From an uncultured Methanobrevibacter sp. (GTDB lineage: Archaea > Methanobacteriota > Methanobacteria > Methanobacteriales > Methanobacteriaceae): a stretch of DNA of 47,267 bases. A program made the translations under genes and the position numbers. The stretch covers positions 1 through 47,267 of the forward strand of contig NZ_CADAJR010000016.1 of the NCBI RefSeq assembly GCF_902788255.1, read 5' to 3'. Positions 16,286-31,871 of the stretch are shown here, in pieces; position 1 is the first letter of the stretch, and each line of letters starts with the position of its first letter. A model generated the notes under the pieces. The model was not told the DNA's origin and made no database searches. It worked only from the letters and a program-made list of their open reading frames with translations.

Positions 16286-16599
16286 TGGTATCTCATTCAT
16301 TTAAGTTCAATTTTAACATGGGACCCAATATAGAGATATCAAAGATTCAAGTGTATTGGGTTTGAACAGTTAACTGAAATTACAATAAGTTAATATTTTG
16401 AAAAATATTTTCAAGTTGCTAGTGATTTGAAAATCATTTTTTCAAATACTATTTTTTACCGTCTAAAATCAATATTGATTAGTTTTCAAATGCTCTCTAG
16501 GCAAACTATTAAATATGGATTGGAATATACTATTACACATTAAATGCTTGTTAAAGTGTTTAAATTGGTTATATACAATAAAATTAAAAAGGTAATATA
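16286..16599 (+). other. Intergenic region before mre11 with promoter, operator and hairpins
   Basis: No gene is seen here. The 314 bp hold two AT-rich hairpins, TTGAAAA/TTTTCAA (16398-16414) and ATTTGAAAA/TTTTCAAAT (16425-16447), which could end herA transcription. They are followed by operator site B (16476-16496), a TATA-like TATTAAATAT (16507-16516) and an AGGTAAT ribosome-binding site before the mre11 ATG. Confidence 0.6.
16476..16496 (+). promoter_or_regulatory. Repair-regulon operator, site B (mre11-rad50)
   Basis: The sequence is TGATTAGTT-TTC-AAATGCTCT. The right arm is identical to sites C and D, and the left arm keeps 7 of 9 positions of site D. The 18 bases 16481-16498 are identical to the minus-strand sequence at 28760-28743 (site C). 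The TATA-like sequence begins about 10 bp downstream, and mre11 starts 103 bp downstream. Confidence 0.65.
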
Positions 16600-26256: not shown

Positions 26257-28692
26257 TCATATTAAATATATCTCATTAAATCCAATGTAATTTTCATCTC
26301 TGCTCCATCCAAGCGCCACATTCGGAATATTGAAGTGGTCCTTTTTGCGAGAATATCCTTCTATTGCGGAGTTCAGTCCTACAAGTAACAGGACACTTTC
26401 CGCCCTTGAAAATGCAACAAAATACAGTCGTGTCAGGTCATCGAATGCACGGTCCTTTTCACTTCTCTCGGATTGTCCAAGTTCACTGTATTGACGTATG
26501 CTGTCTTCAATAGTGATGTTTTTAGGTTCCTTTTTAGGAAATCTCAGATGTCGGGTTTTAATATGGTTGTCATTGAATTTCGAACCCACATCAACAATAA
26601 CCAATGGAAATTCCAATCCCTTTGACTGATGGATTGACAGGACATTCACCCTGTCATCAGGCAATGTGTCAAGCAGGGATTCGTCAATCTGTATTCCTCC
26701 GGTTGCAAGAGGTATGAATATGTTCCAGATTGCTTCAAGGATTGATTCCGTTTCAAGTTTCTTGTTTTCAAATGATATGTGTGAATAGTATTTGCTGAAG
26801 AATCCGGTTTGTGTAATGGACTTTGTAATCGCTTCAAGATATACTATTCCCTCAACGTCTTCCTGCAGTTCGTCAATCCATGTAATCAGCTTGTATGCAA
26901 GTTCCATAAGACTTGCCTTTTTGGGCCATTTGTCAACTCCTCTTGGAATTCTGTTCTGCCAGTAAAGGACGAATTGACTCAGGTTTATCGGTTCATGAGG
27001 TTCGGGGTTCAATTTTATATATTCGCGTGCCTTGACCCTCCATTTTGTCATGGTCACCTTTGCCAGATTAGGAATGCTTTTATCTGAAAGCTGAACTTTT
27101 CCTTCAGGGTCGATACATTCTAGAATCAATCCGCAGAATATCTCCACAATCTCGACTTTCTGAAGTTCTATTCCCCTTGGATTGAAGACCTCAATTGGTG
27201 TTCTTTGATTTTTAAGACTTTTTCTCAAATAGAATAGGAATGTGTTCTTTCCGAACTGCTGTTCTTTTGGGGAATAAGAAAGAATGGCAATGTCTGAGGC
27301 TGATCCGTATTCTGTGTCCAGCTTAAGTGTAATCCTTTCGATGCTTTTTCCCTGTCTTTCCCTTTCCGCATTCATCTGCTGCAGTTGGGCAATGTCAATG
27401 TCATTTAACTTGTTGAAGTAATCCTCATCAAGAACCTTGAGAACCTTAGGGCGGACCTCCCCCTCATTGATAAGTTTGGAAAGCAGCCTTGCAAGGTCAT
27501 TTGAAAGCATCTTCACGTTGTTTCTGAACAGTCCCAATATGGGCATCTTGTCCTTTTCAAAATCAGGGGCTATGATTTTAGGCTTATTCTTAACCCTTGC
27601 ATGCTGATATTCACCATCCAGTTCGACAAACCTGTTGCACAGGTTGATAATGTTTTCTGTTGAACGGTAATTTGTCTTTAGGTTGATTTCCTCTACATCA
27701 ATTCCCAATTTTTCCTTTACCCTTTGCTTATAATTGGTAAACAGGTCAACTGTGGCTCCCCTAAAGCGATAAAGTGACTGGTCATCGTCACCTACAACTG
27801 TGATGTTTCCATTGTTTTTTATTGCGGATTCTGCAATTGTGAAGTAAATCTCTTCCTGAATCAGATTGGTGTCCTGGTATTCATCGATCAATACAAGGCG
27901 GACGTTGTCTAAAAATAGGTCCAGCTTTCCGTCTTTCAGGAATTTCAGGAATCTGGATTCAAGCATTGTGAAATCCATAGTGTTTCTGTTTTTAAGGATT
28001 TCTTCATATCTTTTGATGCATTTAAGAACAATCTGCATTCCTGTATCATGTTTGGCTTGTTGTAGCAATTCATCGACATCCAGTTTGTCCTGATATATTC
28101 TGTCCTTGATTTCAAGCAGTGTTCCACTCATTTTAGAAGGTTCATCAAGCTTTTCCTTACCTGTCAGGAATTTAAGATACTCCTGCAGGCTTTCATTCTT
28201 GTATAACTCATTTTCACTCAATACCTTTATCATGGCTGAATTGGCCACGAACTCTTCAATAACTATCGGATGATTTTGTCCTGGCTGTTTGTGCTGTCTC
28301 ATTATCTCTTCAGCTAGTTTATCAATTGTACCTACATTGATTTGATTCAAATCGATTCTGATTATTTTCCCGATTGTATCGAAGTCATCGGTATCTTCAA
28401 GTATGTGGGTTTTTATTTCATCTCCCCAGCCAAGAATCCTGGAATAGAGTTCTTCTGCAGCTTTTCTTGTAAAAGTTGTTGCAAATATCTCATCAGGGTT
28501 AATGTCATCTACAAAAATGTATTTTAATATTTTCAAAACCATTACGGTGGTTTTTCCGCTTCCAGGTCCTGCTACTAAGAATAATGATTCGGTTGTTTTT
28601 GATAAAATTGCCTTTCTTTGGTCTTCGTTTGAAGAAATGTCCCTTTCAAGTACATTCACTATTATTTCTTCAAATTCCTTTTGTGAAATCAT
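26257..28692 (-). CDS. UvrD/PcrA-family (superfamily 1) DNA helicase
   Basis: The 811-aa SF1A helicase has a Q-motif-like 'NEDQRKAI' (residues about 22-29), Walker A 'GPGSGKTT' (42-49), motif Ia 'ATTFTRKAA', motif II 'LIDEYQDTN' (about 265-273), motif III 'VVGDDDQSLYRFRGA', motif IV 'TNYRST', motif V 'SIHQSKGLEFPLVIV' and motif VI 'RLYFVAFSRA'. It is co-transcribed with the Fe-S nuclease downstream, a combination that in bacteria resects double-strand breaks. The GAGGTGA ribosome-binding site, TATA-like TTAATATATTAA (28728-28739) and operator site C lie directly upstream. It diverges from the MrfA-like helicase gene. Confidence 0.92.
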   Translation of the reverse strand: MISQKEFEEIIVNVLERDISSNEDQRKAILSKTTESLFLVAGPGSGKTTVMVLKILKYIFVDDINPDEIFATTFTRKAAEELYSRILGWGDEIKTHILEDTDDFDTIGKIIRIDLNQINVGTIDKLAEEIMRQHKQPGQNHPIVIEEFVANSAMIKVLSENELYKNESLQEYLKFLTGKEKLDEPSKMSGTLLEIKDRIYQDKLDVDELLQQAKHDTGMQIVLKCIKRYEEILKNRNTMDFTMLESRFLKFLKDGKLDLFLDNVRLVLIDEYQDTNLIQEEIYFTIAESAIKNNGNITVVGDDDQSLYRFRGATVDLFTNYKQRVKEKLGIDVEEINLKTNYRSTENIINLCNRFVELDGEYQHARVKNKPKIIAPDFEKDKMPILGLFRNNVKMLSNDLARLLSKLINEGEVRPKVLKVLDEDYFNKLNDIDIAQLQQMNAERERQGKSIERITLKLDTEYGSASDIAILSYSPKEQQFGKNTFLFYLRKSLKNQRTPIEVFNPRGIELQKVEIVEIFCGLILECIDPEGKVQLSDKSIPNLAKVTMTKWRVKAREYIKLNPEPHEPINLSQFVLYWQNRIPRGVDKWPKKASLMELAYKLITWIDELQEDVEGIVYLEAITKSITQTGFFSKYYSHISFENKKLETESILEAIWNIFIPLATGGIQIDESLLDTLPDDRVNVLSIHQSKGLEFPLVIVDVGSKFNDNHIKTRHLRFPKKEPKNITIEDSIRQYSELGQSERSEKDRAFDDLTRLYFVAFSRAESVLLLVGLNSAIEGYSRKKDHFNIPNVALGWSRDENYIGFNEIYLI

Positions 28693-28744
28693 TTTTCACC
28701 TCTAATTTAATTTATTAATTCTTATAATTAATATATTAATTGAG

Positions 28745-28765
28745 AGAGCATTTGAAAACTGAATG
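28745..28765 (-). promoter_or_regulatory. Repair-regulon operator, site C (UvrD-like helicase)
   Basis: Read on the minus strand the sequence is CATTCAGTT-TTC-AAATGCTCT. The right arm is identical to sites B and D; of the left arm only the AGTT half is kept. It is followed by CTCA, as in site D. The TATA-like palindrome starts about 5 bp downstream and the helicase start codon about 52 bp downstream. Confidence 0.6.
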
Positions 28766-28833
28766 TTCAATTTCGTTAGGTATTTTTTTTGAATACAAAA
28801 ATTTTATAAATATTTATGGACATAATAAAACAT

Positions 28834-28900
28834 ATGGGAGAAAAATCTTCCATAATATGTATAAGTTAGAGGCAATTTTGCTTCTAACTAAATTCTTTTT
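28834..28900 (+). ncRNA. Candidate small RNA of about 65 nt
   Basis: A TATA box TTTATAAATA (28803-28812) is centred about 26 bases before a possible start at 28834-28836. Hairpin 1 is ATGGGAGA/TCTTCCAT (28834-28841 and 28846-28853, one G-U, AAAA loop). Hairpin 2 is a 12-bp stem (28864-28875 and 28878-28889, one G-U) with a very short loop. The U-rich TTCTTTTT (28893-28900) follows. This promoter-hairpin-hairpin-U-tract layout is what a short archaeal RNA gene would look like. No known RNA family is recognised, and expression is not shown. Confidence 0.45.
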
Positions 28901-28930
28901 AAACAATATTTCTCCAATTTTCATTTTCAA

Positions 28931-28951
28931 AGAGTAGTTACCAAATGCTCT
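28931..28951 (+). promoter_or_regulatory. Repair-regulon operator, site D (MrfA-like helicase)
   Basis: The sequence is AGAGTAGTT-ACC-AAATGCTCT. The arms match at 7 of 9 positions as a palindrome, with a 3-bp centre. It differs from site A at a single position. TATA TTTAAATA lies 9 bp downstream (28961-28968), and the helicase ATG is 61 bp downstream. Confidence 0.65.
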
Positions 28952-29012
28952 CTCATTTGATTTAAATACTAATTAGATTAATATAGTATTATAATTAATT
29001 TTAGCTGATATT

Positions 29013-31871
29013 ATGTCTGATGTGGAAAATATTGATATGTTTAAAAATGATGTAAGATATAGGGAAAACATTGCCCATATTGAGACAATACCAGCTAAAA
29101 AAGCTAGTTTTAAGAAAGTCGATAACTTAAATAAAAAGATAACTGATTATCTTGACTCAAAGGGTGTCAAACTATATGAACACCAGGCGGAAACATATGA
29201 GGCAATACAGGATGGTGAAAATGTCATCATCACCACTCCGACGGCTTCAGGAAAAACTTTGGCATTTAATCTTCCCATTATGGAGACAATGATTGAGGAT
29301 GAGGATGCTACTGCACTTTATATTTATCCTGCAAAGGCATTGTCAAACGACCAGTTGCATGTTCTCGAAAACCTTGAAAATGAATTGAAAATCAAAATCA
29401 AGCCCCGAACCTATGATGGGGACACTCCAAGGGAGGACAAACGCGGAATACGTGAAAAGTCCAGAATTGTTCTGACAAATCCATATCAGCTGCATCTTAT
29501 TCTGTCCTGGCATCACCAGTGGTCAAGGTTTTACAAGAACCTGAGATATATTGTCATCGATGAATCACACTACTACAAGGGTGTTTTCGGTTCAAATGTT
29601 GCATTTCTAATCAAGAGACTGAAAAGGATTGCAAACTTTTACGGATCATATCCTCAGTTCATTTTATCCTCTGCAACACTTGCAAATCCTCTGGAGCTTG
29701 CAAATCGTCTGACCGGTGAGGATTTCAAGCTTGTTGACAATGACACCTCACCAAGCGGTGAAAAGGACTTTATCCTATACAATCCATTCAAGAATTATGT
29801 CAGAAAGAAAATCAACACTCAGAACGCCCCTTCAGTTCACATGGAAACAGAAAACATATTCCTCTACATGATGCTTAAAAACATCCAGACATTATGCTTC
29901 ACCGTTTCAAGAAAGACAACCGAACTGATAGCAATGTGGGCTAAAAATGACATGACACAAATCAAGGGTCAGCTTGCCCACAGGATAGCCGCATACCGTG
30001 CAGGTTATCAGGCATCTGAAAGGCGTGAGATTGAAGAGGGACTGAAAAGCGGAAAATATCTTGGAGTGACCTGTACCAATGCATTGGAATTGGGAATTAA
30101 TATTGGGTCTCTTGATGCGGTTATCATTTCAGGATATCCCGGCACCATGATTTCAACATGGCAGCAGGCAGGAAGGGCAGGAAGAAGCAATCAGAAATCA
30201 CTTGCAGTACTAATTGCCTTTGAAAATCAGCTTGACCAGTATTTCATGAACAATCCTAAATTCTTCTTTGACAAGGCTCATGAAAATGCCATCATCGACT
30301 TGACAAACCCTATTCTTCAGGAGGCTCATCTTCTGTGTGCGGCCAAGGAACTGCCTTTGCAGAGGGGTGAGGCGGAAAAGTACTTCAACATTTCACAGAA
30401 TGTTGTTGATGAACTTGTATCCAAAAAGGATTTGCATGAAAACCATAAGGGAGATTTTATCTATCCTTATGATGACAATCCTGCAATGGACCATTCCCTT
30501 GATCAGATTTCTTCACAGGAATTCAAGGTAATGAACAATGGAAAGCTACTTGAAACAATGGAGAAGTCACAAGTATATCGTGAAGCCCATGAAGGTGCTA
30601 TTTTAATCAATAAGGGGGACACTTATGTTGTCGACAGCGTAAGCTTTAAAAATGGCTTTGTAAATGTAACAAGAAAGGATGTGGACTATCATACTATGGT
30701 TTTAAACCAGACAGATATCAGCATCAAAAAGAAACTGTCCAAGACAAAGTACGGCAAGCTAAGCATCCATTTCGGTGAGCTTACAGTAAGCGAGGACTAC
30801 TTCAAATACAAGAAGATGCAGTTTTCAAAGTCAGTGGGCACCTATCCGCTGGATTTACCTCCACTGAAGTTCAATACCAAGGGACTGTGGTTTACAATAC
30901 CTAAGCAGGTAAAGGACACATTGGAAGACATGTTTCCAAATGAGGAGGAGGTATTCGCAGGAGGTCTGCATGGTGCCGAACATGCATTGATAGGTCTTTT
31001 CCCACTTCATACGATGTGTGACAGGTTCGATATTGGAGGTCTTTCAACCAATTATCATGAGGATACTCAGGAAGCAACCATTTTTATCTATGACGGTTAT
31101 GAGGGAGGAATAGGTATCTGTGAAAAGGCTGTTGACGTATTTGTTGAGATGTTGGATTCAACAATAGACCTTTTAAACAACTGCCAATGTCAAAGCGGAT
31201 GTCCTTCATGCATCTATTCTCCGAAATGCGGAAACGATAACAAGCCTTTGCACAAGAATGCAACCAAATATATCCTTGAATACATGAGGAAAATGATTTC
31301 TAAGGATGATTTGGAGGTTGAAGCTGAAGTCATTGTCGAAAATGAGATAATTCCTGATGAATTTGACGAAGCTTATGAACTGTATAAGAAAGGGGATTAT
31401 TCCGCTTCAAAGGATGTCTTAAACAGTATCATCAGTAATGATAAAAACCATTCTAAGGCATTGGCTTTGATGGCTCAGATATTATATGAACAGGATCAAA
31501 AGGATATAGCGCTGATGTTTACCAAAAAGGCACTTTCATGTGACAGGTCTAATGAAATGGCAAATGAGCTTGAGGTTCTTCTTACAAACAAGCAACCAAA
31601 AGAGACTATTGAACTCAATTCATTGGATGACATTGATGTTCTTTATGAAGAGGCCTATGATCTGTATGAGCAGGGGGATTTGGCAACCTCATCTGACATA
31701 CTGGAGAAACTTCTGGACTTTGATGATAAAAACTCAGATGCCTTGGCATTAATGGGTTTGATATATTATCACTCAGGCATCTTTCCAAAGGCTGTCGAAT
31801 ATTACAGAAAGGCATCAAAAATAAATAAAAATGGTGAAATGGTTCGTGAATTGAAGATGAGGGTTTCCTAG
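29013..31871 (+). CDS. MrfA/YprA/Hrq1-like DEAD/DEAH helicase with C-terminal TPR extension
   Basis: The 952-aa superfamily 2 helicase has 'TTPTASGKTLAF' (motif I, about residues 74-85), 'LTNPYQLH', 'VIDESHYYKG' (motif II, DESH), 'LSSATLANP' (motif III), 'TNALELGINIG' and 'QQAGRAGRS' (motif VI). A DUF1998-type cysteine cluster lies near 725-740 ('CQCQSGCPSC', then 'KC'). This domain set is that of MrfA (YprA), a mitomycin-lesion repair helicase in Bacillus, and of yeast Hrq1. After about residue 785 the protein continues with tetratricopeptide-like repeats ('YELYKKGDYSASKDVL' and 'YDLYEQGDLATSSDIL' are clear copies). That extension is unusual and probably recruits partners. Operator site D controls the promoter region. 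Confidence 0.88.
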   Translation: MSDVENIDMFKNDVRYRENIAHIETIPAKKASFKKVDNLNKKITDYLDSKGVKLYEHQAETYEAIQDGENVIITTPTASGKTLAFNLPIMETMIEDEDATALYIYPAKALSNDQLHVLENLENELKIKIKPRTYDGDTPREDKRGIREKSRIVLTNPYQLHLILSWHHQWSRFYKNLRYIVIDESHYYKGVFGSNVAFLIKRLKRIANFYGSYPQFILSSATLANPLELANRLTGEDFKLVDNDTSPSGEKDFILYNPFKNYVRKKINTQNAPSVHMETENIFLYMMLKNIQTLCFTVSRKTTELIAMWAKNDMTQIKGQLAHRIAAYRAGYQASERREIEEGLKSGKYLGVTCTNALELGINIGSLDAVIISGYPGTMISTWQQAGRAGRSNQKSLAVLIAFENQLDQYFMNNPKFFFDKAHENAIIDLTNPILQEAHLLCAAKELPLQRGEAEKYFNISQNVVDELVSKKDLHENHKGDFIYPYDDNPAMDHSLDQISSQEFKVMNNGKLLETMEKSQVYREAHEGAILINKGDTYVVDSVSFKNGFVNVTRKDVDYHTMVLNQTDISIKKKLSKTKYGKLSIHFGELTVSEDYFKYKKMQFSKSVGTYPLDLPPLKFNTKGLWFTIPKQVKDTLEDMFPNEEEVFAGGLHGAEHALIGLFPLHTMCDRFDIGGLSTNYHEDTQEATIFIYDGYEGGIGICEKAVDVFVEMLDSTIDLLNNCQCQSGCPSCIYSPKCGNDNKPLHKNATKYILEYMRKMISKDDLEVEAEVIVENEIIPDEFDEAYELYKKGDYSASKDVLNSIISNDKNHSKALALMAQILYEQDQKDIALMFTKKALSCDRSNEMANELEVLLTNKQPKETIELNSLDDIDVLYEEAYDLYEQGDLATSSDILEKLLDFDDKNSDALALMGLIYYHSGIFPKAVEYYRKASKINKNGEMVRELKMRVS

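Follow-up and report, generated by a model that had tools for sequence, protein, structure and literature searches.

A probable conserved, structured small RNA of Methanobrevibacter with predicted antisense pairing to the cbiM translation start

The window analyzed here is a 47,267-nucleotide stretch of an uncultured Methanobrevibacter sp. genome (GCF_902788255.1, contig NZ_CADAJR010000016.1). Among named genomes, its closest relatives belong to Methanobrevibacter; most are rumen and gut MAGs, and M. thaueri SIG19 is one of them. Two divergent helicase genes flank the element under study (Table 1). On the left is a UvrD/AddA-like gene, with a PD-(D/E)XK nuclease gene behind it; on the right, a DEAD/DEAH helicase gene encodes TPR repeats and an MrfA Zn-binding domain. 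This pair is present in most of the genus. The spacer between them holds a putative small RNA (sRNA) gene, and each helicase gene carries a putative repair-regulon motif outside it.

Table 1. Positions in the window of the sRNA, its parts and the neighboring features
Feature	Position	Strand	Basis or remark
Further putative repair-regulon motif site	16487-16500	+	
UvrD/AddA-like helicase gene, conserved left neighbor	26257..28692	-	domains and synteny
Putative repair-regulon motif of the UvrD-like gene, outside the sRNA	28741..28754	-	
TATA box of the putative sRNA promoter, TTTATAAATA	28803..28812	+	sequence; TATA-like score peak in relatives
Putative sRNA gene	28833..28900	+	ends approximate; 5' end from TATA spacing, 3' end from T-run
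Hairpin 1, TATGGGAGA/TCTTCCATA	28833..28854	+	9 pairs, one G-U
cbiM-pairing strand, CTTCCATAATATGTATAA	28847..28864	+	hairpin 1 3' arm and linker
Hairpin 2, GTTAGAGGCA/TGCTTCTAAC	28865..28888	+	10 pairs, one G-U
T-rich end, TTCTTTTT	28893..28900	+	sequence; T-rich stretch 3' of hairpin 2 in most relatives
Putative repair-regulon motif of the DEAD/DEAH helicase gene, outside the sRNA	28942..28955	+	
DEAD/DEAH helicase gene, conserved right neighbor	29013..31871	+	domains and synteny

A preliminary description of this spacer had proposed a small RNA with a TATA box, two hairpins and a T-rich tail. The TATA box lies exactly where it had been placed, and the hairpins and the tail were located correctly, give or take a base. 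Each hairpin has its single G-U pair; the pair counts are 9 and 10 instead of 8 and 12, and A28864-T28889 could contribute one extra pair to hairpin 2. The plus strand of positions 28828-28902 folds with a predicted energy of -25.0 kcal/mol, compared with -8.4 ± 2.2 kcal/mol in shuffled sequences (n = 200, none folding as well; z = -7.45), and the minus strand folds more weakly (z = -3.5). Hairpin 2 with the T-run is the sole terminator-like site within the spacer, hairpin 2 being the probable terminator hairpin and TTCTTTTT the probable transcript end. The absence of worthwhile coding potential was borne out, as no credible ORF crosses the element: the 65-aa frame starting with TTG is not conserved, since relatives differ out of frame in their stems, their loops and a 4-nt linker insertion. 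We also rejected a short frame that begins at the ATG of the linker; in many relatives it is interrupted by stops and by the 4-nt insertion. Searching the window against Rfam at the gathering cut-off returned a single tRNA match and no family that fits the sRNA, and the chance-level matches obtained on five loci under relaxed settings (E up to 10) did not include the window's sRNA.

Covariance-model searches recovered a single copy of the element per genome, located in this spacer, in 40 of 67 Methanobrevibacter genomes. The two models used (R1, built on 4 sequences, and R2, built on 35) match positions 28833-28898 in the window. Outside the genus, only borderline R2 matches appeared (E 0.002-0.01), which we took as chance. 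The two-hairpin element is kept in many genomes while the remaining spacer barely aligns, and both stems show the compensatory changes that the preliminary description had proposed looking for: among 35 sequences, 13 of 18 pairs changed on both sides and 96.6% of cells were paired, compared with about 50% of cells and 0-6 such pairs in a control with slid partners. Covariation exceeded all shuffles (n = 500). Both-side changes affect 4 of the 8 modeled pairs of hairpin 1 (96.1% of cells paired) and 9 of the 10 pairs of hairpin 2 (97.0%). G-U pairs outnumber A-C pairs in the stems by 59 to 8, which identifies the plus strand as the RNA. Across 35 relatives, the TATA-like score is maximal 28-30 nt upstream of hairpin 1, and from the usual archaeal TATA-to-start spacing we infer a transcript start at or just before that hairpin. 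Whereas the stems vary with compensation, the 3' arm of hairpin 1 and the linker (CTTCCATAATATGCATAA) are nearly invariant and make up the most conserved part. At the level of sequence comparison, these data show that selection acts on a structured RNA and reveal which strand encodes it and where its promoter lies; the fixed TATA distance, covarying stems, T-rich end and strand bias strongly support the proposed small RNA, and the small structured RNA gene is very probably real.

When presence and absence were mapped on a helicase tree of 54 genomes, five changes were required, compared with 14.5 when labels were shuffled. Genome G006 carries the sRNA though it adjoins 13 sRNA-less genomes in this tree, G011 and G039 are without it, and decayed copies occur in G032 (L064) and G062 (L027). 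The sRNA is old within Methanobrevibacter, yet dispensable: it was lost several times and is therefore not essential.

The nearly invariant segment CTTCCATAATATGCATAA is the exact reverse complement of the cbiM translation start TT-ATG-CAT-ATT-ATG-GAA-G. In the window's genome, the strand CTTCCATAATATGTATAA, which includes the hairpin 1 3' arm CTTCCATA, complements cbiM from -2 to +16 (G000:C5:13152-13169 = L228:1653-1670) with one G-U pair. A search of the 67 genomes with TTATGCATATTATGGA, allowing at most one mismatch, found one recurrent site besides the sRNA itself, and a reversed control was near zero. The recurrent site coincides with the start of a single gene, GGAGG...TT-ATG-CAT-ATT-ATG-GAA-GG, with the protein beginning MHIMEG[YF]LP, and in the window's own genome that gene is cbiM (TIGR00123, 337.6 bits), the head of the cobalt transporter operon cbiMNQO, with cbiN, cbiQ and cbiO behind it. 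In a pattern search of the same genome (2.2 Mb, 69 contigs), the cbiM start is the only perfect 18-mer match, the next non-self sites having three mismatches, and the predicted duplex energy is -23.4 kcal/mol at cbiM versus -12.6 kcal/mol for the runner-up among 115 ORF starts. Gene and target are unlinked, on contigs C16 and C5 here and separated by 336 kb in G008, a genome in one contig. The locus shows three sequence-level hallmarks of a trans-encoded base-pairing sRNA acting at the ribosome-binding/start site, namely a structured RNA encoded apart from its target, conserved complementarity to an mRNA translation start region, and a promoter and terminator of its own as judged by sequence (a TATA box at fixed distance and a terminator-like end). 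Other candidate matches were discarded as chance: the further one-mismatch sites that were examined (TTATGCATATGATGGA, TTATGCAGATTATGGA, TTATGCATATTATGGT and others) do not coincide with starts of long frames, and none of 14 matches to the 17-mer TTCCATAATATGCATAA in viral contigs is RNA-like in fold (best 18.4 bits, E 0.12).

We further examined whether the pairing itself is selected. Over -2 to +16, 32 cognate sRNA-cbiM pairs, one per genome, contain 9 mismatches in 576 cells. Substitutions in the pairing strand of the sRNA are for the most part C>T and A>G, changes that preserve G-U wobble opposite the fixed codons of cbiM. At the cbiM start, the codons are kept by the protein sequence, even in sRNA-less genomes, and most of the duplex therefore tests sRNA-side conservation only. 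The region upstream of the start codon is free of this constraint. There, from -1 to -8, pairing reached 246 in cognate combinations versus 160 ± 16 in swapped ones, with 0 of 5000 swaps as good; shared ancestry remains in this test, and single compensatory events therefore weigh more. In G006, cbiM has AC instead of TT at -2,-1 and the sRNA has GU instead of AA, giving two compensated positions, and in G001, which has an extra T in the cbiM leader, the linker still pairs with the leader out to -10. Species with the leader ATTATTTATG mostly have a longer linker (e.g. CATAAATAA), extending the duplex to about 22 bp. Unpaired positions near the linker end occur in G038, G055, G026, G013 and G029. 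A full-length close cbiM was not found in seven sRNA-bearing MAGs (G033, G037, G044, G051, G053, G057 and G058), and only a divergent paralog was found in G021. As read from these alignments, the complementarity to cbiM is both conserved and covarying.

The cbiM leader is itself conserved in sRNA-bearing genomes (88% mean column identity across 31 leaders, alignment A5), with the layout TTATCAATAAAACTTTA...TTTTTATTGA, a TATCAAA..TTTGATA hairpin and then GGAGG; the leaders of sRNA-less clades are unrelated. G011 and G062, which lost the sRNA recently, retain the conserved leader, and G032 retains only part of it. In G032, most of the conserved leader is gone and the sRNA copy is decayed, hinting at joint loss. 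In the leader at L228:1561-1654 and the other cbiM leaders of the alignment, two possible stems share TTTTTATTGA, whose partner is the upstream TCAATAAAA or, in some folds, the GGAGG region, and on these predicted folds the leader may be a switch of its own. A tentative and rather doubtful extension is a two-RNA circuit, in which the structured leader and the start-codon sRNA, largely kept and lost together, would jointly sense cobalt or corrinoid where bacteria use a B12 riboswitch.

We consider it highly likely, from the sequence comparisons, that the element acts in trans as an antisense sRNA, occluding the start site of cbiM and lowering CbiMNQO synthesis. Transcription from a TATA promoter of its own would yield an RNA of ∼70 nt, with hairpin 2 and the U-run as terminator. 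Its exposed linker would serve as a toehold that contacts AUGCAU at the cbiM start codon, and pairing would then open hairpin 1, because the 5' arm of that hairpin and the cbiM codons compete for the CUUCCAUA strand. A duplex of 18-22 bp would zip from about -8/-2 to +16 on the cbiM mRNA, beside the Shine-Dalgarno GGAGG, hiding the start codon from the ribosome, and less of the cobalt transporter CbiMNQO would be made. In predicted duplexes, the 3' arm of hairpin 2 may also pair with GGAGG, a tentative contact. The sRNA would most likely tune cobalt import through this translation block, with repression as the expected sign and an inducing signal that is presumably the cobalt or corrinoid state.

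The same RNA and target could also work in the opposite direction, activating or stabilizing cbiM by freeing the ribosome-binding site from leader structure or by protecting the mRNA. The conserved and structured leader, with GGAGG in a stem in some predicted folds, is compatible with this, and positive archaeal sRNAs are known, including sRNA132, which acts on phosphate transporters (PMC6560208), and sRNA154, which stabilizes mRNAs (PMC5867862). Activation is nevertheless unlikely in our judgement: the duplex covers the start codon itself and would have to re-open for initiation, and GGAGG is free anyway in most predicted leader folds. It is extremely unlikely that the locus holds no RNA gene and is instead a DNA element, or a terminator separating the divergent genes. 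Hairpin 2 and the T-run do resemble a terminator, and in most relatives the linker includes a palindrome, ATGCAT, but both flanking genes point away, so that neither needs a terminator there; the excess of G-U over A-C pairs and the constant TATA distance also speak against this explanation, as does the linker, which would be superfluous for a terminator but is the best conserved segment and matches cbiM.

The preliminary description had instead connected the sRNA with its neighbors, as co-regulated with the repair genes or acting on their mRNAs, which now appears very unlikely. The two flanking genes do carry the repair motif, and in the window and some relatives eight linker nucleotides (CATAATAT) could base-pair with ATATTATG at the helicase start; however, this match is lost in other relatives (GCTGTTATT, GCTGAGATT, GCTGGTACC), and we rejected the pairing as not conserved. 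The helicase also falls outside the best five of 115 ORF starts in duplex energy, and the conserved strand matches the start of a cobalt-uptake gene rather than a repair gene. Co-regulation likewise found no support. In the window, the repair motif CAAATGCTCTCT is missing from the position immediately upstream of the sRNA TATA box, and it holds no constant place in relatives. Operator positions shift while the RNA stays: in many relatives (L010, L011, L013, L014, L017, L018, L025, L080), the helicase-side operator is absent or elsewhere and the sRNA is kept.

The proposed antisense occlusion of cbiM resembles the action of sRNA162 of Methanosarcina mazei. The single-stranded linker of that RNA masks the ribosome-binding/start region of an mRNA encoded in trans, blocking its translation (PMC3510493). 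Both are intergenic methanogen sRNAs with linker pairing at the ribosome-binding site or start, a likeness in way of working alone: sRNA162 belongs to an unrelated genus and targets a transcription-factor mRNA, whereas the pairing predicted here spans 18-22 nt, is nearly perfect and is conserved over about 40 species, with a single conserved target in a metal-transport operon. The sRNA132 of Haloferax volcanii shares two stems with a linker of about 13 nt and a link to nutrient ABC transporter operons, but its predicted binding is in the 3'-UTR and its effect is positive under phosphate starvation, and target, site and lineage all differ (PMC6560208). The sRNA154 and sRNA41 of M. mazei are also trans-acting archaeal RNAs that partly block ribosome-binding sites, but they are nitrogen-linked and have several targets, and sRNA154 pairs by loops (PMC5867862). 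RNA-based control of the same operon has a counterpart in the B12-element (cobalamin riboswitch), as in Geobacter, where cbiMNQO lies within a B12-regulated cbi cluster (PMC545781); that element is a cis-acting, ligand-binding leader, in contrast to the separate antisense RNA proposed here.

Targets are known for very few archaeal sRNAs (PMC5867862, PMC6560208). Neither Methanobrevibacter nor metal comes up in a review of these RNAs (PMC5867862), and in the open-access literature we found no sRNA reported for Methanobrevibacter or for archaeal cobalt uptake. Here, comparative analysis of genomes yielded an RNA together with its strand, its promoter, its target and the region through which they would pair, and it revealed compensatory changes between the two molecules. 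Cobalt is used by all sequenced methanogens (PMC2667541), and the predicted pairing bears on how gut methanogens control their cobalt supply.

Outside the sRNA, the motif CAAATGCTCTCT/TTAGTTTTCAAATGCTCTCTCA, with a TATA box within about 5-10 nt downstream, occurs at about two dozen sites in the genome (L154-L183). Judged by eye from their N-termini, many of the genes bearing it resemble repair or replication genes, among them Hjc, Hef, UvrA, XPD, TopoVI-B, RPA, Mre11, Hel308 and a XerC-like gene, and the set of CAAATGCTCTCT sites looks like a repair regulon. Because the motif sits just upstream of the TATA box, its arrangement suggests that the regulator is an activator. In the genomes of L025 and L080, the repair operator and TATA box on the helicase side precede the sRNA by about 120 nt instead of following it. 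A DtxR-like palindrome at some sRNA promoters (TTTAGGTTAACCAAA, TTTAGGCATGCCAAA, TTAGGTTGACCTAA) was set aside as sporadic; absent in most genomes, it is found beside the sRNA TATA box at L002, L025, L080 and L076 (TTTAGGTTAACCAAA, TTTAGGCATGCCAAA, TTTAGGCATACCAAA, TTAGGTTGACCTAA), where its form is possibly that of a metal-regulator site.
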